Positions 37,105 through 46,391 of a stretch of 64,000 bases of DNA are shown piece by piece. Each line of letters starts with the position of its first letter. Within the stretch, counting starts at the first letter, position 1. The notes beneath the pieces are model-generated. The model ran no database searches. It saw nothing but the letters and a program-made list of their open reading frames with translations, and was not told the DNA's origin. The translations under genes were made by a program, and so were the position numbers. The stretch is from Ensifer sp. LC11 (GTDB taxonomy: Bacteria > Pseudomonadota > Alphaproteobacteria > Rhizobiales > Rhizobiaceae): NCBI RefSeq assembly GCF_001695835.1, contig NZ_MBSO01000056.1, positions 62,001 to 126,000 of the forward strand. Reading direction: 5' to 3'.

Positions 37105-37130
37105 ATGCATAAGGCCAATTAATGCATAAG
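37105..37130. promoter_or_regulatory. Direct repeat at the LysR start
   Basis: ATGCATAAG occurs at 37105-37113 and again at 37122-37130, where it includes the LysR start codon. The 17 bp period suggests a binding site used in autoregulation, or a duplicated start. Confidence 0.4.
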
Positions 37131-38021
37131 ACACTTCCCCTTCCGCCATTGACGGCCATGCGCGTCTTTGAGGCCGTGGCCCGGCACGCAAGCTTCACCA
37201 AGGCCGCAAACGAGCTCGGCATGACCCAGGCCGCGGTCAGCTATCAGATCAAGGTTCTCGAGGATCGGGTCGGAGCGCCGCTGTTCCTGCGCCGGCCGCG
37301 CCAGATCGCCCTGACGGAGGTAGGGCAGCGGCTGGCGCCGGCCGTCACGCAAGCCTTCGAACAGCTGAGCGAAGCTTACGTCGCGGCGCGCGGCGGTGCC
37401 CAGGGAACGCTTGTGATCAGCACGATCGCAACCTTTGCCTCCAACTGGCTGGCGCGGCGCCTCGGATCCTTCCAGATCGCCCACCCTTCCCTGGCCGTCC
37501 GACTTCAGACGGAACCGCATCTGGTCGACTTTACCCGCGAAGAAGTGGACATCGGCATTCGCTCGGGCAGCGGAGATTGGCCGGGGCTTGCTGCTCACCG
37601 GCTCATCGATGCCGATTTCACCCCGATGCTCAGCCCAAGCCTGGCGGCGAGCATCGGCGGGATAAAGGAGCCGGCCGATCTCCTGCGCCTACCGCTGCTC
37701 GATACCGCCGACCCCTGGTGGGCGAAGTGGTTCAAGGCCGCTGATGTGTCGGTGGAAGGGCTTGCCAGCCGGCCGGGCAGCAGCATGGGCGCCCAGGTTT
37801 ACGAGGGCAATGCGGCGGCGGCCGGCCAGGGTGTCGCAATCCTGACACCGGCCTTTTTCGCCGCCGAACTGGCGGACGGGCGCCTCGTCCAACCTTTCGA
37901 CCTTCTCTGCAACGACGACCACGCCTATTGGCTTGTCTATCCGGAGACGCGGCGGAATTCGCCGAAGATCAGCGCCTTCCGGCAATGGATCCTCGGCGAG
38001 CTTGCGGCATCGTCGAGCTGA
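37122..38021 (+). CDS. LysR-family regulator, GcvA-like
   Basis: 299 aa. The N terminus reads PPLTAMRVFEAVARHASFTK and MTQAAVSYQIKVLEDRVGAP, a GcvA-type helix-turn-helix. The ligand domain has EEVDIGIRSGSGDWPGLAA and the end DDHAYWLVYPETRRNSPKI. Divergent from a DUF1127-like gene. It precedes the N-formylglutamate amidohydrolase gene by 118 bp on the same strand but need not be its regulator. Confidence 0.9.
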   Translation: MHKTLPLPPLTAMRVFEAVARHASFTKAANELGMTQAAVSYQIKVLEDRVGAPLFLRRPRQIALTEVGQRLAPAVTQAFEQLSEAYVAARGGAQGTLVISTIATFASNWLARRLGSFQIAHPSLAVRLQTEPHLVDFTREEVDIGIRSGSGDWPGLAAHRLIDADFTPMLSPSLAASIGGIKEPADLLRLPLLDTADPWWAKWFKAADVSVEGLASRPGSSMGAQVYEGNAAAAGQGVAILTPAFFAAELADGRLVQPFDLLCNDDHAYWLVYPETRRNSPKISAFRQWILGELAASSS

Positions 38022-38139: not shown

Positions 38140-38964
38140 ATGCAGCGCGAGCCGACGGATCAATTCCATTCTTCCACCGAAAACGCCTGGTGGAGCATCC
38201 ACCGCGGCGACGGCCCCATCGTCGGCTCCGCGATCCACAACGGACACGCCATGCGGCGTGACGCGCGCGCGCTCGTTGCGCTCTCGGACGAGGAACGGCT
38301 GCGCGAGGAAGACCCTTTCACGGAGTTCATCATCCGCGATCTCGCCAACCGCGTCGTCGTCCACCGCTCCCGTTTCGAGGTCGATCTCAACCGCGCCCGT
38401 TCGGGCGCTGTCTATATCGAACCGGCACAGGCCTGGGGCCTGACGGTGTGGAACGGGCGTCCGCCGCCTGATCTGATCGAGGCTTCGCTCGCAGTGCACG
38501 ACGAGTATTACGCGATGCTTCTGCCCATGCTGACGGCCATCGAACGGCGCTACGGGCATTTCATCGTCCTCGACGTGCATAGCTACAATTATCGGCGCGG
38601 CGGCCCGCACGCCGAGCCAGCCGATGCCATCGACACGCCGGAGATCAACATCGGGACCTATACGATGGACCGGTGCAAATGGGCCGGTGTCATCGATGCC
38701 CTGATGGCCGCCCTCAGCACGGCAAAGGTCTCCGGCCGTCTGCTGGACGTGCGCGAGAACGTTGCTTTCCAGGGACGCGGGGAGCACACGCGCTTCATTC
38801 ACGAGCACTTCCCGGAGACTGGCTGCGCGCTCGCGATCGAGTTCAAGAAGACCTTCATGGACGAGTGGACCGGCAAGCCGGATCTTGAGGCCCTGCGGTC
38901 GTTGCGCGCGCTGGTCGGCTCGCTCGTCCCGACCCTGACCGAGGCGCTCGTGAGGCAGCAGTGA
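38140..38964 (+). CDS. N-formylglutamate amidohydrolase family protein
   Basis: 274 aa. The zinc-amidohydrolase pattern is seen (VGSAIHNGHAMRRDARA, then IVLDVHSYNYRRGGP and TRFIHEHFPETGCALAIEFK). GGGAGA precedes the ATG. The stop overlaps the GTG start of the QEGLA gene. N-formylglutamate deformylase (HutG-type) normally sits in histidine catabolism, but here no hut gene is near; the substrate is therefore probably a different acyl amino acid or peptide-like compound. Confidence 0.88.
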   Translation: MQREPTDQFHSSTENAWWSIHRGDGPIVGSAIHNGHAMRRDARALVALSDEERLREEDPFTEFIIRDLANRVVVHRSRFEVDLNRARSGAVYIEPAQAWGLTVWNGRPPPDLIEASLAVHDEYYAMLLPMLTAIERRYGHFIVLDVHSYNYRRGGPHAEPADAIDTPEINIGTYTMDRCKWAGVIDALMAALSTAKVSGRLLDVRENVAFQGRGEHTRFIHEHFPETGCALAIEFKKTFMDEWTGKPDLEALRSLRALVGSLVPTLTEALVRQQ

Positions 38965-40844
38965 CGGAGCGTGAACACACCCTTGCCGATCCGCTCGGGG
39001 ATTGGCTCGATGACGCCGTTGCCCGCTTGAGGGATGGTCGGGCCGTGCGAAGGGATTTTGGCGAAGGCGGACGGCTGCACGTCGACCGGCTGCTTCCCTT
39101 TCTTTGCGTGCACATCGCCGAGGATCGCGAGCAGCCTGTCGCCCGCGACATCGCACAGGCCAACGCCGCCTATCTTCTGGCGCCGACCATGGTGGCGGCC
39201 GTCACCATCATCGAGCGGATCGGCCGCGTGATCAAAGAGCGCCTGGGCATGTTCATCGTGCTCGAATTCGCGGAGCTCGAAAGCGACGATCCGCCGGCGA
39301 AGGACGCGCCCTTCCTGCCGCCCTTCCTGATCGAGGTGGTGACGGGAACGCGGCCCAGCGAGCAGATGGCTGCGAAAGCCCTGGTCGAGACGGCTGCGAC
39401 AATCGAAGGCAAATTCCGGACGCCGCATGTGACGCTCGTCTCACGCGACCCTGATCCGGCGGCAAGCGGCAAGCGCTTGGCGATCGACTTTCCCCATCTG
39501 ACCGTTCGCTTCGCCCCGATCTATTGCGAGCCGGGCACGCGCCGTATCTACCCGCAACTGCGCGAGCGACTGGTCGCAAGCATGTTTGATGCGGGCCTGC
39601 GAGCCGTTGCCGCCTTCGCCCGTGCCAAATCCGACAAGCTGCCACTGCCGACGCACCGTGCCTTTGGCCGCAAGGCGTTCGTTGACGCGGTGGTGCGTGC
39701 CGATCGCGGCATCGACGAGATCGCTTCGAGCTTCGATTTCCTGCTGGCGGTGACGCCGATCAACGCCGAGAGCGCCTGGGCGGAGTTTGCGTCGAACGGC
39801 TTTTCCCGCAGCCCCCGCCTCTACTATCGGCCGCTGACGCTGCAGATCGAGACGGCCAAGCGCAAGCTTTTCTCGCTCGGCTTCGAACACCTCGAAGACC
39901 CGCTGCTTTATGCGCTCTACCGGGAAAAGCAGCAGGAAGTCGACCTGCAGCTCTCGATGATTTCGGCGCGAGAGGCCCGCACGTTCGTCGAGCTTGGCCG
40001 CGCGCTCTATGGTCCGGTGGAAGCCGAGCTTCTGGACACGGCCTGCGCCATCCTTGCGCAAACCGCAGCCGCCGGCGACGCGAAGCCTATCGCCGAAGAC
40101 AGGCGCGACTGCCACTACATAAGGGAGCGCGCACAGGCGATGGTGGCCGCCTATCGGCGGCAGTCGGCCGATTTCACCGCATCCATCGAGCTGCGCGACG
40201 ATCTGCCCGCCGGCCTCCTCGTCTCCCGTGGCCAGCTGTTGATTGCCCGCAGCTCGGCGCTCGATGCCGGTCGCGTCGAAGCACTGCTCAATCATGAAGT
40301 CGGCGTTCATCTGCTGACCTATTTCAACGGCTCGGCCCAGGGGCTGAGGATCTTTCGCTCCGGCCTTGCAGGCTACGAGGGCATGCAGGAAGGGCTCGCA
40401 GTCTTTGCCGAATATCTGAGCGCAGGCATGACGCCGGAACGATTGCGGGTCCTCGCAGCCAGGGTCGTCGGCTGCGCCTCTATGCTTGACGGCGCCCTGT
40501 TTTCGGAAACCTACCGGCTTTTGACGGACGGTCACGGCTTTGCCGCCTCCGAGGCCTTCAACATCACGCTGCGCATCTATCGCGGCGGCGGACTGGTCAA
40601 GGACGCGATCTATCTGCGCGGGCTCATGCAGCTCCTCGACCATCTCGCCGCCGGCGGCAGCCTCGAGCCCTTCTGGATGGGCAAGATTGCCGCGTCGCAC
40701 TTCGCCGCAATCCAGGAACTCAACTTGCGTGGCCTGCTTGGTCCGGCCGCCATTCGCCCTATCTTCCTTGATGACGTCAAAGCGGGCGACCGCCTTCAGC
40801 GAGCGCATAGGGGAATGACCCCGCTCGACATGGTCGCAGACTAG
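38961..40844 (+). CDS. QEGLA-motif protein (DUF1704), putative zinc metallopeptidase
   Basis: 627 aa. Annotated in related genomes as flavohemoglobin expression-modulating QEGLA protein. The C-terminal half carries HEVGVH (445-450), a zinc HExxH motif, and QEGLA (476-480), with Glu477 as possible third ligand. This pattern is shared with the DUF1704/MATCAP family, whose eukaryotic members are tyrosine carboxypeptidases. GTG start with GTGA overlap of the previous stop. It would act as a peptidase on a modified peptide or amino acid, but the bacterial substrate is unknown. Confidence 0.85.
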   Translation: MTEREHTLADPLGDWLDDAVARLRDGRAVRRDFGEGGRLHVDRLLPFLCVHIAEDREQPVARDIAQANAAYLLAPTMVAAVTIIERIGRVIKERLGMFIVLEFAELESDDPPAKDAPFLPPFLIEVVTGTRPSEQMAAKALVETAATIEGKFRTPHVTLVSRDPDPAASGKRLAIDFPHLTVRFAPIYCEPGTRRIYPQLRERLVASMFDAGLRAVAAFARAKSDKLPLPTHRAFGRKAFVDAVVRADRGIDEIASSFDFLLAVTPINAESAWAEFASNGFSRSPRLYYRPLTLQIETAKRKLFSLGFEHLEDPLLYALYREKQQEVDLQLSMISAREARTFVELGRALYGPVEAELLDTACAILAQTAAAGDAKPIAEDRRDCHYIRERAQAMVAAYRRQSADFTASIELRDDLPAGLLVSRGQLLIARSSALDAGRVEALLNHEVGVHLLTYFNGSAQGLRIFRSGLAGYEGMQEGLAVFAEYLSAGMTPERLRVLAARVVGCASMLDGALFSETYRLLTDGHGFAASEAFNITLRIYRGGGLVKDAIYLRGLMQLLDHLAAGGSLEPFWMGKIAASHFAAIQELNLRGLLGPAAIRPIFLDDVKAGDRLQRAHRGMTPLDMVAD

Positions 40845-41007
40845 TGGAACGAATTTGACGATTGCGCCCCGTTTACCGCACGCGTTCTGCTCAAATGTCA
40901 AATTCGGAATTTCCACTGGCATCATAGCGTTACGAGTGGTCCTCGAGAATCGGACATTTGCTCTCGAGGACGCTGAGATCACATGCAAATGTCGGAATCG
41001 GACCACT
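40843..41007. repeat. Nested palindromic intergenic element
   Basis: Two imperfect inverted repeats in tandem. The first (40843-40917) pairs AGTGGAACGAATTTGAC with GTCAAATTCGGAATTTCCACT. The second (40935-41007) pairs AGTGGTCC...GACATTTGC with GCAAATGTC...GGACCACT, with an inner TCCTCGAG/CTCGAGGA pair. Both use AGTGG outer arms. It lies between the QEGLA and ATP-grasp genes and resembles a rhizobial palindromic repeat. Confidence 0.65.
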
Positions 41008-41017
41008 GGGAAACCGG

Positions 41018-42064
41018 ATGCGCATTGCCTTTCTCGTCAACTCCATCGAAGGCGAAGAAACATTTTACGCAACGACCTCGCTTGCGCTCGCCGGCCTCGC
41101 ACGCGGCCACGAGGTGCTCTACGTCACGCCGGGCGATTTCGCGCTGAGGGCCGACGGGCGGCTGATGATCCATGCTTTAAGCCTGGGGGCGGCGAAGCCG
41201 CGCAAGGCCGAGACCTTCATCGCCGCGCTCAAGGGCGATCACACCCGGCGGGAAGTCCTCGACATAGCCGACGTCCAGGTCCTGTTTTTGAGAAACGACC
41301 CGTCGGAAGACACCGGCCCGCGGCCTTGGGCCGCCCAAGCCGGCGTGATCTTCGGCAGGCTCGCGGCCGAACGCGGAGCAATCGTCGTCAACGATGCCGA
41401 CGGCCTGGCTCTGGCGCAGAACAAGCTCTATCTCCAGGACTTTCCGGAAGTCGTGCGGCCGACAACGCTGATATCGAAGCATATCGAGGAGGTCAGAGCC
41501 TTCGTCGACGAGCATCCCGAGGGCGTCATCCTGAAACCGCTGCAGGGTTCCGGCGGCCGGAATGTCTTCAAGGTCAGTTCCAGCCACGAAACCAACCTCA
41601 ACCAGATTTTCGAGGCTGTCAGCGAAATGGGCTACGTCATCGCTCAGGAATATCTGCCCGCAGCATCCGAGGGCGATGTCAGGCTGTTCCTCATGAACGG
41701 CCGGCCGCTCAAGCGCGGCGATACCTATGCTGCCGTCCGGCGTGTCCCTGCGGAAGGGGATCTGCGTTCCAACATGCATGCCAACGGCACGGCCGCGCCG
41801 GCGGTGATCACACCCGAGATGCTCGCCGTCGCGGAACAGATGCGGCCCAAACTCGTGCGCGACGGCATGTTCCTCGTCGGCCTCGACGTCGTCGGCGACA
41901 GGCTCGTCGAGGTCAATGTCTTTACCCCCGGCGCACTGCCTGAAATCGCCGAGCTGACCTCGGTCGATTTCAGCGAGGATATCGTGGCAGCGCTCGAACG
42001 GAAGCTCTCTATCAAGCAGGCTTACGCAGGCGCGCTCTCCAATCGCGAGCTTGCCACGCTCTGA
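41018..42064 (+). CDS. Glutathione synthetase-like ATP-grasp ligase
   Basis: 348 aa. It begins MRIAFLVNSIEGEETFYATT like GshB-type ATP-grasp proteins. The central domain has EGVILKPLQGSGGRNVFKV (nucleotide-lysine region) and DVRLFLMNGRPLK, and the metal site is DRLVEVNVFTPGALPEI (Glu and Asn ligands). These enzymes activate a carboxylate as acyl phosphate and join it to an amine. ATG at 41018 is chosen for the start. It lies 174 bp after the QEGLA gene; the gap is a palindromic element, so cotranscription is likely but not certain. Confidence 0.85.
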   Translation: MRIAFLVNSIEGEETFYATTSLALAGLARGHEVLYVTPGDFALRADGRLMIHALSLGAAKPRKAETFIAALKGDHTRREVLDIADVQVLFLRNDPSEDTGPRPWAAQAGVIFGRLAAERGAIVVNDADGLALAQNKLYLQDFPEVVRPTTLISKHIEEVRAFVDEHPEGVILKPLQGSGGRNVFKVSSSHETNLNQIFEAVSEMGYVIAQEYLPAASEGDVRLFLMNGRPLKRGDTYAAVRRVPAEGDLRSNMHANGTAAPAVITPEMLAVAEQMRPKLVRDGMFLVGLDVVGDRLVEVNVFTPGALPEIAELTSVDFSEDIVAALERKLSIKQAYAGALSNRELATL

Positions 42065-42248: not shown

Positions 42249-43001
42249 CTACAGGGACTCGTCGACGATCACGACCGGACGACCCATCGAGCACGCCTCG
42301 ACGCGGGCCTCGACCCGGTAGACCGAGCGCAGCATCGCCGCCGTGATGACCTCTTGGGTCGGTCCGCTTGCCAGCACGGAGCCGCCGCTAATGACGATCG
42401 TATCATCGCAGTAACGCAGGGCGTGATTGAGATCGTGCAGAGCGATCAGCACCGCCATGCCGGCCTCAGCCGACAGACGCTTCATGAAGCCGAGCACCTC
42501 GATCTGGCGAAAGAGATCGAGCGCCGAGGTCGGCTCATCCATCAGCAGCACTTCGGGCTTGCGCACCAGAGCCTGAGCGATCGAGACCAGCTGCCGCTGG
42601 CCACCGGAAAGCTCGCCGAGACCGCGAAAGGCAAGGTCGGCGATCCGCAGTTCCGAAAGCACCCGATCGATCTCGGCGAGCTCGGCGTCCTTCACCTTCC
42701 AGCTCGACCCCTGCTTGGCCGAGAGCAGCACCGACTCGTAGACGGTGAGCACGGCGTTGGCGCCGGTATCCTGCGGCATATAACAGATACCCTGCGGTCC
42801 CTTGGCCGTGTCCGCCAGGTGCACGGTACCCGGCCCTGACGTGAGCCCGGCGATGCGCTTGAACAGCGTCGATTTGCCGGCCGCATTCGGGCCGATGACC
42901 GCCGTCAGGCCGCCACCGCGCAGGACCCCGGTGTCGACGTCGGATAGCACCACGCGCCGGCCATAGTTCGCGCCGACCTTTTCGAGCGCCAGGCTTACCA
43001 T
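42249..43001 (-). CDS. Iron-siderophore ABC transporter ATPase (FepC type)
   Basis: 250 aa. Walker A (VIGPNAAGKSTL), ABC signature (ELSGGQRQLVSIAQAL), Walker B (EVLLMDEPTSALDL) and H loop (IALHDLNHAL). Last gene of the leftward operon. Overlaps the permease gene by 7 bp. ATG at 43001 starts the normal FecE-type N terminus. Confidence 0.94.
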   Translation of the reverse strand: MVSLALEKVGANYGRRVVLSDVDTGVLRGGGLTAVIGPNAAGKSTLFKRIAGLTSGPGTVHLADTAKGPQGICYMPQDTGANAVLTVYESVLLSAKQGSSWKVKDAELAEIDRVLSELRIADLAFRGLGELSGGQRQLVSIAQALVRKPEVLLMDEPTSALDLFRQIEVLGFMKRLSAEAGMAVLIALHDLNHALRYCDDTIVISGGSVLASGPTQEVITAAMLRSVYRVEARVEACSMGRPVVIVDESL

Positions 43002-44065
43002 GCGCGCCTCCTGTTGGTGAAAATCAGCACGAAGAAGAAGGGCACGCCGACAAGCGCCGTGATGACGCCGATCGGCAGCACCGCGCCCGGGATCAGCATC
43101 TTGCTGACGACGGAGGTGACCGAAAGCAGCAGCGCGCCGCACAGCACCGAGGCGGGCAGGAAGAAGCGCTGATCTTCACCCACAAGCATGCGGGCGATGT
43201 GCGGGCCGACGAGGCCGACGAAGCCGATCGTGCCGACGAAGGAGACGGGGATCGCCGCCAGCAGGCTCACCGTCATCATCGCCTCGAGCCGAAGGCGACG
43301 AACGTTGATGCCGAAGCTCGCAGCCTTGTCGTCGCCGAGCCGAAGTGCTGTTAGTGCCCAGGCGTGTCTTGCAAAGAGCGGCAAGGCAAAAACAAGCACA
43401 GCGCCGGTGATCCAGACCTTGGGCCAGGTCGCCTTGGTGAGGCTGCCCATTGTCCAGAAGACGACCGCGGCAAGCGCCTGCTCAGAGGCGAGATATTCGA
43501 GCAACGACAATGCGGCGTTGAAAGTGAAGACGAGCGCGATGCCGAGCAGCACGATGGTCTCAACCGTGACGCCGCGCATGGTAGAGGCAAAGTGGATGAA
43601 CAGCGCGGCCAGCATCGCCATCAGGAAAGCGTTGATCGGCACCATATATTGAACCGCGACAGGAAAGATCGCGACGCCGGCGACGAGGCCGAGGGCTGCA
43701 CCAAAGCTGGCGGCGGCGGAGATGCCGAGCGTGAAGGGGCTCGCAAGCGGATTGGCGAGGATCGTCTGCATCTGCGCGCCGGCGACCGACAGCGAGGCGC
43801 CGACCGTGACGGCCATCAGCGCGATCGGCATGCGGATATCCCAGATGACCACGCGCAGCTGGTCGCTCACCGTCTCGGCGCGAAAGAGCGCCGTCAGCAC
43901 GTCCGACAGCGGATAGTTTGCGGGCCCGAGCGCCATGTCGACCGCAACCGACGCAAAGAGCGCGGCGACGAGACAGAAGATCAGCACCAGGCGACGCAGA
44001 ACGAGGGCGCGGTAGCGTCCCCGTCCCTCGGCCCCGGCGAGTGCGTCAGCCATGGCGACCATCAC
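42995..44065 (-). CDS. Iron-siderophore ABC transporter permease (FecCD family)
   Basis: 356 aa, about nine to ten membrane helices. FecCD marks: SVAGAQMQTILANPLASPFTLG and GTIGFVGLVGPHIARMLVGED. A single permease, so it probably works as a homodimer with the ATPase that follows. Its start overlaps the stop of the adjacent binding-protein gene. Confidence 0.94.
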   Translation of the reverse strand: MMVAMADALAGAEGRGRYRALVLRRLVLIFCLVAALFASVAVDMALGPANYPLSDVLTALFRAETVSDQLRVVIWDIRMPIALMAVTVGASLSVAGAQMQTILANPLASPFTLGISAAASFGAALGLVAGVAIFPVAVQYMVPINAFLMAMLAALFIHFASTMRGVTVETIVLLGIALVFTFNAALSLLEYLASEQALAAVVFWTMGSLTKATWPKVWITGAVLVFALPLFARHAWALTALRLGDDKAASFGINVRRLRLEAMMTVSLLAAIPVSFVGTIGFVGLVGPHIARMLVGEDQRFFLPASVLCGALLLSVTSVVSKMLIPGAVLPIGVITALVGVPFFFVLIFTNRRRAW

Positions 44066-45201
44066 TCCCCACCTTTCGGTAGCGAGACGAAATAGCCCGG
44101 GCGATAGGTTACCGGCAGGAATTTATCGTGGAGCTCGCGGAATGTTCTATCCGGATCAATATCGGCAAAGAGCTGCGGATGGAACCATTTGGCAAATTGC
44201 TGGATCGGCACGAACTCATAGGGAGCACCGTAGAACTGGTGCCAGACGGCATGCACATTGCCTTCCCTTACCGCCTTCAGGCCGGGAAAGCCCGGGCGCT
44301 GCATCAGGCCACGCAGCCGTTCCTGCGCCGCTGCCGCATCGGCACCGCGCCCGACGCTGACGAACTGGTTGAGATCGGATTCCGCCGACCAGTTGCTGCC
44401 GGTGATGATGACATGATCCGGGTCGCTGACGATCAGCTGTTCGGGATTGAGGTCGCCGAAGGTGCCCTTGATCACGTCGGAACCGATATTGTGGCCTCCG
44501 GCCTTTTCCACCATCTCGCCGAAGTTTGCAGGGCCGAATGTCCGGCAGCAGACGACGTCGCCGGTGATGCCGGGAGAGCGCTCGATGAACACCTTGGGAC
44601 GCGTGATGGCACCGGCCTTCTGCAGGCGATCGGTGACAAGCGCGATCTGGGCACTGCGGTAGGCGATGAATTCCCGCGCCTTTTCTTCGGCACCGAAGAT
44701 CTGACCGAGGATTTCGACGGACTTTTCGCTGTTGGCGGCCGGATCCACCCGGAAGTCGAGATAGACGACCGCGATGCCGGCGGCGGCGGCCTTTTCGATG
44801 AAGCCCGATTCCTCGACCGCCTTTTCAGCCTCGAGGTTCAGCGTCAGCACATCGGGCTTCAGCGCGATCGCCGCTTCGAGGCTGAAATCGCCCGAGGGGA
44901 TGTAGCCGAAGCGCGGCAGTTTCTCGATCTCGGGGAAGCGCTCGACATAGGCCCTGTAGGAGTCCGGATCCTTCTTCACGAGATCGTCGCGCCAGCCGAC
45001 GATCGTGTCGAAGAGGTGCTCGCCTTTGAGTGCCGCAGCGACATGAATCTGCCGCGCTTCGCCGAGCAGGATGCGCTTGGCCGGCAGGTCGATTTCGACC
45101 CTGCGCCCGGTCACATCGACGATTTCCGCGGCATCGGCTGGCAGTGCGGCCAACACCACAGCAGCCATGATCGCCGAGGCGATTTTCCTGTAGATCGACA
45201 T
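44062..45201 (-). CDS. Iron-siderophore ABC substrate-binding protein A
   Basis: 379 aa with a signal peptide (IMAAVVLAALPADAAE). TroA-like fold: VTGRRVEIDLPAKRILLGEA, then NPEQLIVSDPDHVIITGSNW. Odd feature: two adjacent cysteines (218 and 219, VVCCRTFG) in the second lobe, kept in the paralog. ATG at 45201 follows AAAGGA. Overlaps the permease by 4 bp. Likely ligand: ferric siderophore. Confidence 0.9.
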   Translation of the reverse strand: MSIYRKIASAIMAAVVLAALPADAAEIVDVTGRRVEIDLPAKRILLGEARQIHVAAALKGEHLFDTIVGWRDDLVKKDPDSYRAYVERFPEIEKLPRFGYIPSGDFSLEAAIALKPDVLTLNLEAEKAVEESGFIEKAAAAGIAVVYLDFRVDPAANSEKSVEILGQIFGAEEKAREFIAYRSAQIALVTDRLQKAGAITRPKVFIERSPGITGDVVCCRTFGPANFGEMVEKAGGHNIGSDVIKGTFGDLNPEQLIVSDPDHVIITGSNWSAESDLNQFVSVGRGADAAAAQERLRGLMQRPGFPGLKAVREGNVHAVWHQFYGAPYEFVPIQQFAKWFHPQLFADIDPDRTFRELHDKFLPVTYRPGYFVSLPKGGE

Positions 45202-45257
45202 TTCCAATCCTTTCAATCAGGGCGCCAGAAGCCTCCTTCTTCCGGCCACCGAATGCC

Positions 45258-46391
45258 TTATTTGCCGGCGGCCAGCGAGACGAAGTAGCCGCTCTTGTAG
45301 GGGAGCGGCAGGAAGCGCTCGTGCAACTCCTTGAAGGTCGCCTCCGGGTCGAGGTCGGCGAAGAGGTCCGGATGCAGCCACTTGGCGATCTGCTGGATGG
45401 CGACGAACTGGTAGGGGTTGTTGTAGAACTGGTGCCAGATGGCGTGCACCTGACCGTCCTTGACTGCCTTGACGCCGGTAAAGGCCGGCCGCTTGGTGAG
45501 GTTGTCGAGCTTGCGCGCCGCTTCCTTTTCATCGGCACCATAGCCGACGCCAACCCAGTTGCCGCCGGGCACATAGCCCTGCCAGTTGCCGCCGGTGATG
45601 ATGATCTGGTCGGGATTGGACGCGATGATCTGCTCCGGGTTGACCGTTCCGAAGGTGCCGGGAATGATGTCCTTGGCCATGTTCACGCCGCCGGCGAACT
45701 CGACCATCTTGCCGAAGTTCTCGTTGCCGAAGGACATGCAGCAATCATCGGAATAGCCGCCAGCGCGCTCGACGAAGACGAGCGGTTTCTTCGGGTTGGC
45801 CTTGGCGAGAACGTCGGTCACCCTGGCGATGCTGTCGGCGCGGAACTTGATGAATTCCTCGGCTTTTTCTTCCTTGCCGAGCAGCTTGCCCATCAGCCGC
45901 ATGCTCGGCTCGGTGTTTTCCATCGGCTTCTCGCGGAAGTCGACATAGACGAGCGGGATGCCGACCTTGGCGAGCTTTTCGATGTAACCGGCCTCTTCCG
46001 TCGCCGTCTTCGCGTCGACATTCATCAACACGACGTCAGGCTTCAGTGCCACGGCCTGCTCGATGTCGAACGTGCCGTCCTTCATGCCGCCAAAGGTCGG
46101 CAGCTTGGCGATGTCTGGATACTTGGCGAGATAGGCCGCGTAGCTTTCCGGGTCGGCCTTGGAAAGATCGTCGCGCCAGCCGACGATGCGCTTGAACGGT
46201 TCTTCACGGTCAAGCGCGCCGAGGAAATAGATCTGGCGGCCTTCGCCGAGGATCACATGTTCGACCGGCACGTTGACCTCGACGTCGCGGCCCGTGACGT
46301 CCTTCAGTTTCACGACGTCAGCGAAGGCGGCCGTGGAGAAAAGCGCACAAAAGCCCGTGGCGGCCAGAGCCACCCTGTTGAAAAACCGCAT
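45258..46391 (-). CDS. Iron-siderophore ABC substrate-binding protein B
   Basis: 377 aa with a signal peptide (VALAATGFCALFSTAAFADV). Same fold and order as the neighbour (VTGRDVEVNVPVEHVILGEG, then NPEQIIASNPDQIIITGGNW) and 50-60 percent identity by eye in aligned segments. It has the same adjacent cysteines (217 and 218, DDCCMSFG). First gene of the operon, directly under the iron operator. Duplication before the single permease suggests two ligand specificities. Confidence 0.9.
   Translation of the reverse strand: MRFFNRVALAATGFCALFSTAAFADVVKLKDVTGRDVEVNVPVEHVILGEGRQIYFLGALDREEPFKRIVGWRDDLSKADPESYAAYLAKYPDIAKLPTFGGMKDGTFDIEQAVALKPDVVLMNVDAKTATEEAGYIEKLAKVGIPLVYVDFREKPMENTEPSMRLMGKLLGKEEKAEEFIKFRADSIARVTDVLAKANPKKPLVFVERAGGYSDDCCMSFGNENFGKMVEFAGGVNMAKDIIPGTFGTVNPEQIIASNPDQIIITGGNWQGYVPGGNWVGVGYGADEKEAARKLDNLTKRPAFTGVKAVKDGQVHAIWHQFYNNPYQFVAIQQIAKWLHPDLFADLDPEATFKELHERFLPLPYKSGYFVSLAAGK

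Follow-up and report, generated by a model that had tools for sequence, protein, structure and literature searches.

A conserved three-gene unit of an N-formylglutamate amidohydrolase-like hydrolase, a MATCAP-domain QEGLA protein and an ATP-grasp ligase in Ensifer sp. LC11

Introduction

The tubulin code of eukaryotes is served by TTL and TTLL, which are ATP-grasp enzymes that add residues, by the CCPs, which are M14 enzymes that remove them, and by the MATCAPs, which remove a C-terminal Tyr or Glu. Ligases of the GshB and RimK type make glutamyl- or acyl-amino-acid amides, and N-formylglutamate amidohydrolase and its fold relatives cut them. Bacterial relatives of MATCAP carry a sole annotation, "flavohemoglobin expression-modulating", which is silent on chemistry. 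Here we describe one such relative, the QEGLA protein, encoded between genes for an N-formylglutamate-amidohydrolase-like M14-fold hydrolase (FGase) and a GshB-like ATP-grasp ligase (GRASP) in a 64,000-nucleotide stretch of the Ensifer sp. LC11 genome (contig NZ_MBSO01000056.1, positions 62,001 to 126,000; hereafter the window). Like TTL/TTLL, CCP and MATCAP together, the set combines an ATP-grasp ligase with an M14-fold hydrolase and a MATCAP; unlike them it forms one gene cluster and belongs to different subfamilies. The unit is real, conserved and uncharacterised, and no study of it was found in the open-access literature, outside which most subscription papers fall.

Gene order and linkage

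The three genes lie on the forward strand of the window. FGase (38140..38964; 274 aa; PF05013, E 2e-21) overlaps by 4 bp the reading frame of QEGLA (38961..40844; 627 aa, GTG start; PF08014, E 8.5e-88, and TIGR02421), which is followed by GRASP (41018..42064; 348 aa; NF009110 subfamily). The original prediction, made from the DNA letters without database searches, had read three same-strand genes with the first two overlapping by 4 bp, and the open reading frames (ORFs) and the PF05013, PF08014/TIGR02421 and NF009110 matches agree with it. Its identification of the third product as a GshB-like ATP-grasp ligase also held (NF009110, PRK12458; 464.3 bits against a cut-off of 408). The ORF extends to TTG 40958, a doubtful start; ATG 41018 is probably used instead, giving 348 aa, because the NF009110 profile alignment begins there, at ligase residue 21.

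Scanning an alignment of long QEGLA proteins over one genome per species (84,980 species) yielded 175 confirmed loci. The best 80 of these, together with three plasmid records, make up a set of 83 loci, with one best match or ORF taken per locus; a fragment (L028) was excluded from analysis. FGase, QEGLA and GRASP are contiguous, in fixed order and on one strand in 83/83 loci. Their hosts are related (chiefly Rhizobiaceae, plus Devosia and a small number of other taxa), and the loci are not 83 independent events. Of 151 genomes of the window's own family, 14 contain PF08014, and the same 14 contain NF009110 at a score over its cut-off, the QEGLA and ligase genes being neighbours every time. 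Although the set is patchily distributed in this family, the QEGLA/ligase pair is always complete. The original prediction had hung on the three families occurring together in other genomes, and they do so. We conclude that the three genes behave as one conserved unit. No fixed fourth member emerged when ORFs of at least 35 aa within 4 kb were clustered, as no cluster occurred in more than 28 of the 83 loci. Sinorhizobium meliloti 1021 carries the three genes on pSymB (L109). In S. meliloti a conserved 70-aa protein that lacks a Pfam or NCBIfam match precedes FGase (L110:6862-7074). We rejected it as an obligate precursor resembling those of ribosomally synthesized and post-translationally modified peptides, given its presence in only 23/83 loci, in both orientations, with no match in the window.

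A sample of 249 genomes across the phylum contained PF08014 in 23 and NF009110 over cut-off in eight. A long-class MATCAP adjoins the ligase in seven of these eight; in the eighth (G109), which lacks a PF08014 match, the NF009110 match lies at base 48 of a contig. The remaining 16 genomes with PF08014, which lack NF009110 over cut-off, carry other, mostly shorter, MATCAP forms (15 genomes) or, in G240, a long-class-like fragment with an internal stop (L130:8842-9336). This fragment scores 111.7 bits with the long-class profile, above all 15 other forms, has no partners on its stretch and is perhaps a decaying copy. GRASP adjoins QEGLA at eight of the nine long-class loci read from the sample (L112–L120). 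FGase is found at five (L112, L115, L116, L119 and, fused, L113), with two extra genes between FGase and QEGLA in L116 and L119; in L118 and L120 the stretch ends at a contig edge. At nine loci with other MATCAP forms (L121–L129, from 8 of the 15 such genomes), no FGase or GRASP profile match was present in the stretches fetched.

Domains and conserved sites

QEGLA passes PF08014 (295.2 bits against 27) and TIGR02421 (348.6 against 338.65), and its predicted model (predicted local distance difference test score, pLDDT, 84.6; predicted template modelling score, pTM, 0.66) falls into two domains. Residues 261–624 (39741..40832) form a predicted MATCAP metallo-carboxypeptidase domain. They superpose on human MATCAP/TMCP (KIAA0895L, 7z5g) with a Z of 24.6 and a root-mean-square deviation (rmsd) of 3.2 over 295 residues at 19% identity, and the QEGLA profile matches 7z5g at E 4.6e-6. 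The modelled fold supports the kinship with MATCAP that the original prediction had noted. The two proteins also share HExxxH, the Glu of (Q/E)EG and an R..KD..YL region; QEGLA differs in being bacterial and in carrying, besides MATCAP, either a pseudo-domain that resembles FGase or an FGase domain.

The HEVGVH stretch (residues 445–450, 40293..40310), a predicted HExxxH zinc helix, and the QEGLA motif (residues 476–480, 40386..40400) lie where they had been placed before. H445, E446, H450, Q476 and E477 are invariant in 90/90 aligned long QEGLA proteins (the window, 6 distant and 83 near). H445, E446, H450 and E477, the last a presumed third zinc ligand, align in sequence with HEIGTH and EEGLA of human MATCAP. 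By this alignment the MATCAP zinc motif is intact in the C-terminal domain. The alignment and the superposition over 295 residues lend no support to a helix and Glu too distant to share a metal site, the outcome that would have refuted the original prediction. E446 corresponds to TMCP1 E281, whose change to Ala is described in PMC10499314 as leaving the enzyme inactive. The source genome has no MATCAP elsewhere.

The N-terminal third of QEGLA (residues ~28–225, 39042..39635; hhalign and VIA-align) appears to be a degenerate FGase/M14-type domain. Its model matches FGase 2q7s at Z 11.4 over 173 residues, M14 carboxypeptidases at up to Z 11.9 and amidase-3 enzymes at Z about 11; these matches are tied within one Z unit, and therefore the fold alone does not single out FGase. 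Local profile comparison with the cluster FGase gave an hhalign probability of 82.5 (pairwise E 1e-5) and 77.6 in the reverse direction, while a control with the C-terminal part of QEGLA gave 0.2. The position aligned with the FGase metal His, H147, is His in 0/90 proteins. We read the domain as a former FGase that has lost its metal site because a fused family holds an FGase at the same place and because one copy in that family, L185, has decayed there. The original prediction had missed this domain, as it had the FGase–MATCAP fusion and the joint loss of FGase site and ligase described below.

The cluster FGase passes PF05013 (77.6 bits against 28.9). Its predicted model (pLDDT 88.9) superposes on N-formylglutamate amidohydrolase 2q7s with Z 24.4 and rmsd 2.8 over 241 residues and on 2odf with Z 22.4, followed by M14 carboxypeptidases and poly-gamma-glutamate hydrolases at Z ~11–12; CCP5 (8v3p) is a weak Foldseek match (rank 16, E 8e-3, probability 0.60). 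Eleven residues (H33, E56, E57, D58, R78, D82, N84, R85, D145, H147 and E234) are invariant in 88/88 aligned sequences. The cluster FGase differs from N-formylglutamate amidohydrolases of the usual kind in its low PF05013 score: five other FGase-family genes of the source genome reach 137–257 bits, all above it. A profile of the cluster-type family (A3) recovers the window copy alone in that genome, and a sister profile finds one other, weak match (28 bits). By sequence, then, the cluster FGase is a separate subfamily within PF05013.

GRASP resembles GshB and RimK ligases in carrying GSH-S_N and GSH-S_ATP domains and aligns with most of E. coli GshB (1gsa residues 24–313 of 316; E 4.5e-39), and more distantly with the RimK S6 ligase 4iwx (E 1.9e-10). 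It differs from GshB in belonging to its own subfamily and in falling below the glutathione synthase equivalog cut-offs (TIGR01380, 196.8 against 299.05; NF003573, 208.9 against 272), and it coexists with a canonical GshB (G000:C17; 454 bits on NF003573). The ligase homologue of a second family (L113) passes NF003573 (280.2 against 272) and fails TIGR01380 (248.5). GRASP is thus not the ordinary GshB of this genome, and no gsh or hut gene lies among the seven annotated neighbours of the set in the window; on both counts the original prediction, which had held that the usual roles do not explain the set, stands.

Fusion and joint loss in a second family

The second family (f39) appears to be Vibrionaceae, because the fused protein of G243 shares, over 99% of its length, 62.8% identity with a Vibrio sp. 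HDW18 protein and because named Vibrio and Photobacterium records sit within its tree. Its 121 genomes include 49 with PF08014 (48 over cut-off), of which 40 have NF009110 over cut-off and nine do not. The ligase lies directly upstream of FGase-MATCAP in all 40 NF009110-positive genomes (at L147–L176 it was seen in part, within 1.5-kb flanks, and the whole gene was placed there by the NF009110 genome search). FGase and MATCAP are fused into one protein of ~660–700 residues in 39 of these genomes; in the remaining one, G406, they are two abutting ORFs (L181:2950-4940), either a real split or an assembly error.

The eleven residues invariant in the 88 stand-alone cluster FGases served as a signature of the FGase site. 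All eleven are kept in 40/40 fused proteins with an adjoining ligase (39 from the sample and the Photobacterium record L146), and the signature is broken in 3/3 long proteins of this family without a ligase. The three are L144, where the presumed metal His (H147) is replaced by Tyr and D58 by Ala; L170, with 6/11 signature residues changed (L196 repeats L170 and was excluded from counts and tree); and L185, in which no FGase was detected that the signature alignment could score and the N-terminal part was judged degenerate by reading the sequence. All three retain the MATCAP motif. They occupy three separate places on a maximum-likelihood tree, where well-supported branches force three changes. 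A further clade of short MATCAPs (8 rows, one origin) lacks the FGase domain and has no adjoining cluster ligase; L149 and L186 are second, short copies in G452 and G414, which also carry the fused copy and the ligase. Profile A3 found no cluster-type FGase in G399 or in six genomes whose MATCAP is of the short form alone (G435, G440, G441, G449, G471 and G474) and, in G459, nothing but the broken copy; none of these eight genomes has NF009110 over cut-off. For these eight, the searches rule against relocation of the ligase or FGase in place of loss. In this family an FGase site and the ligase seem to depend on each other, and MATCAP can persist alone.

Proposed function

We favour, with somewhat better than even confidence, a three-enzyme unit acting on one peptide-like substrate, in which GRASP and FGase are paired on one bond and MATCAP trims the C-terminus. 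GRASP, being of the GshB/RimK type, would couple a carboxylate to an amino acid through an amide bond at the expense of ATP, and FGase, as an M14-fold metal hydrolase, would cleave that bond or strip an acyl group next to it, making the two a writer/eraser or ligate/deprotect pair on one glutamyl-type amide. The MATCAP domain of QEGLA would remove the C-terminal residue of the same molecule. The stand-alone FGase may supply the activity that QEGLA has lost from its N-terminal domain, perhaps by associating with this domain. The other order, with FGase preparing the substrate of the ligase, would fit equally well. Because an eraser has no use once its writer is gone, such a pair would account for the joint loss of FGase site and ligase, and that loss in turn argues that GRASP and FGase are paired on one bond. 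Also in favour is L114 (8161-11110), where a second QEGLA copy overlaps a gene for an AstE/AspA-type deacylase (PF24827, E 1.2e-36) that stands in the place of FGase. The linkage, the folds of the models, the conservation of sites, the fusion and, for one family, the joint loss are observations; the reactions, the substrate, the location and the association of FGase with the pseudo-domain are inferences from them. No obvious signal peptide was seen in the three proteins on reading their sequences by eye (no predictor was used), and the unit is therefore taken to be probably cytoplasmic. We think a small peptide of the glutamyl type more likely as substrate; a protein C-terminus would be the bolder choice. 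The original prediction had proposed a small pathway that makes and trims a conjugated metabolite: the action of the three genes as a unit is upheld, and its preference for a small metabolite over a peptide or protein C-terminus is not. The partner genes, the domain architecture and the losses seen in nature suggest a specific ligase/hydrolase logic and offer tractable hosts (Sinorhizobium and Ensifer). Identifying the substrate would make sense of an orphan enzyme family and might bear on the origin of the eukaryotic tail-trimming enzymes.

Several observations weigh against this proposal. L114 has QEGLA without GRASP. L117 has QEGLA and GRASP without FGase before the contig ends. MATCAP also occurs without FGase and ligase, and its function may therefore be independent of theirs. 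In the global mode of hhalign the match between the N-terminal domain and FGase is weak (37.8 and 28.6). A second NF009110 copy lies in the source genome (C21), away from MATCAP, and G318 likewise has a second copy; the ligase subfamily has contexts outside the three-gene set. The losses number only three, long branches were flagged by the tree program (L112, L119, L114, L185 and L181 among others), and L144 is known from a plasmid record alone, so that its ligase may lie on the chromosome. The structure models are built on fairly close sequences, 42 for QEGLA and 31 for FGase. The weak global profile match and the other contexts of the ligase subfamily lowered our confidence slightly.

The alternative that survives best, though we think it unlikely, is a bacterial analogue of the tubulin code, in which the C-terminal tail of a protein would be written by the ligase, which adds residues, and erased by MATCAP and the M14-type hydrolase, which remove them. 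PMC10499314 describes MATCAP/TMCP enzymes as processing tubulin C-terminal tails and as deglutamylating, the C-terminal domain of QEGLA has the MATCAP fold in its model, FGase shares the M14 fold (its match to CCP5 being weak), and GRASP is related to the RimK S6 ligases. Set against this, no target protein was seen beside the set, the 70-aa neighbour occurring in only 23/83 loci and in both orientations, and the ligase is nearer to GshB, a small-molecule enzyme, than to RimK. A shade more doubtful is a bacterial code that is written and erased at the C-terminus of either a protein or a peptide by an ATP-grasp ligase and an FGase eraser, the two being retained or lost as a pair and coupled to MATCAP. 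If true, it would mean that the three enzyme folds that edit eukaryotic tubulin tails are gathered in one bacterial cluster.

A pathway induced at low osmolarity for the catabolism or salvage of N-acylated or gamma-glutamyl peptides, with the ligase serving only to re-activate a product, seems to us improbable. Two of the three enzymes are hydrolases, as such a pathway would have it. In Photobacterium damselae, according to PMC10308900, A0J47_RS17020 (GshB) and A0J47_RS17025 (QEGLA) rise 38.4-fold and 27.5-fold at 1% versus 3% NaCl, and the authors link the low-salt-induced "GshB" to Vibrio cholerae gshB phenotypes. The consecutive tags suggest that the two genes are neighbours, and as a neighbour of QEGLA A0J47_RS17020 is more likely an NF009110 paralogue than GshB. 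This is one transcriptome from a different lineage, however, and the ligase of the second family is absent from precisely those loci whose FGase site is broken, which points to the ligase as central.

That ordinary paralogues simply stand side by side (an extra glutathione synthase, a histidine-degradation deformylase and an unrelated QEGLA), as the automatic names say and as the second-family ligase might suggest by passing one glutathione synthase equivalog cut-off, is very hard to credit, being contradicted by the linkage, fusion and joint loss, by the canonical GshB elsewhere in the genome and by the five other FGases that score higher on PF05013.

Neighbouring genes and other observations

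A GcvA-type LysR regulator (37122..38021, forward strand; PF03466/PF00126; NF008352, 292.9 over 288) ends 118 bp upstream of FGase and is a possible local regulator. LysR matches occur in 18/83 loci, and in only 5/83, the closest relatives (L029, L030, L031, L036 and L111), do they occupy the position found in the window; we rejected LysR as a general regulator of the set. Downstream, convergent with the three genes, the reverse strand at 42249-46391 encodes an ABC importer of the iron-siderophore type. Its two substrate-binding proteins, encoded in tandem, belong to one family and score below the cut-off of their best NCBIfam match, PRK14048.

Carriage of the set as phage cargo was rejected, a search of 50,697 phage records having given one weak match, in Pseudomonas phage Y1, with 27% identity over 27% of the query. 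This region of the phage (OQ572403.1, 63506-64048) bears a weak likeness to the MATCAP core (E 1e-6).

The second NF009110 ligase of the source genome (L141:7989-10401, G000:C21) is followed by TIGR02587- and TIGR02588-type genes, two uncharacterised families; the latter gene scores just under its cut-off (94.2 against 95). We take COG3930 to be the QEGLA family. VV2_1203 (COG3930) and VV2_1204 (glutathione synthetase) of Vibrio vulnificus bear consecutive tags (PMC3091676). Just upstream of the ligase/MATCAP genes in L144 (6507-9965), L146 (5507-9980) and L113 (7423-12465) lie LysR and DUF413 (maoP-type) genes, annotated as such in L144, with DUF413 recognised by Pfam in L146 and the rest by eye.

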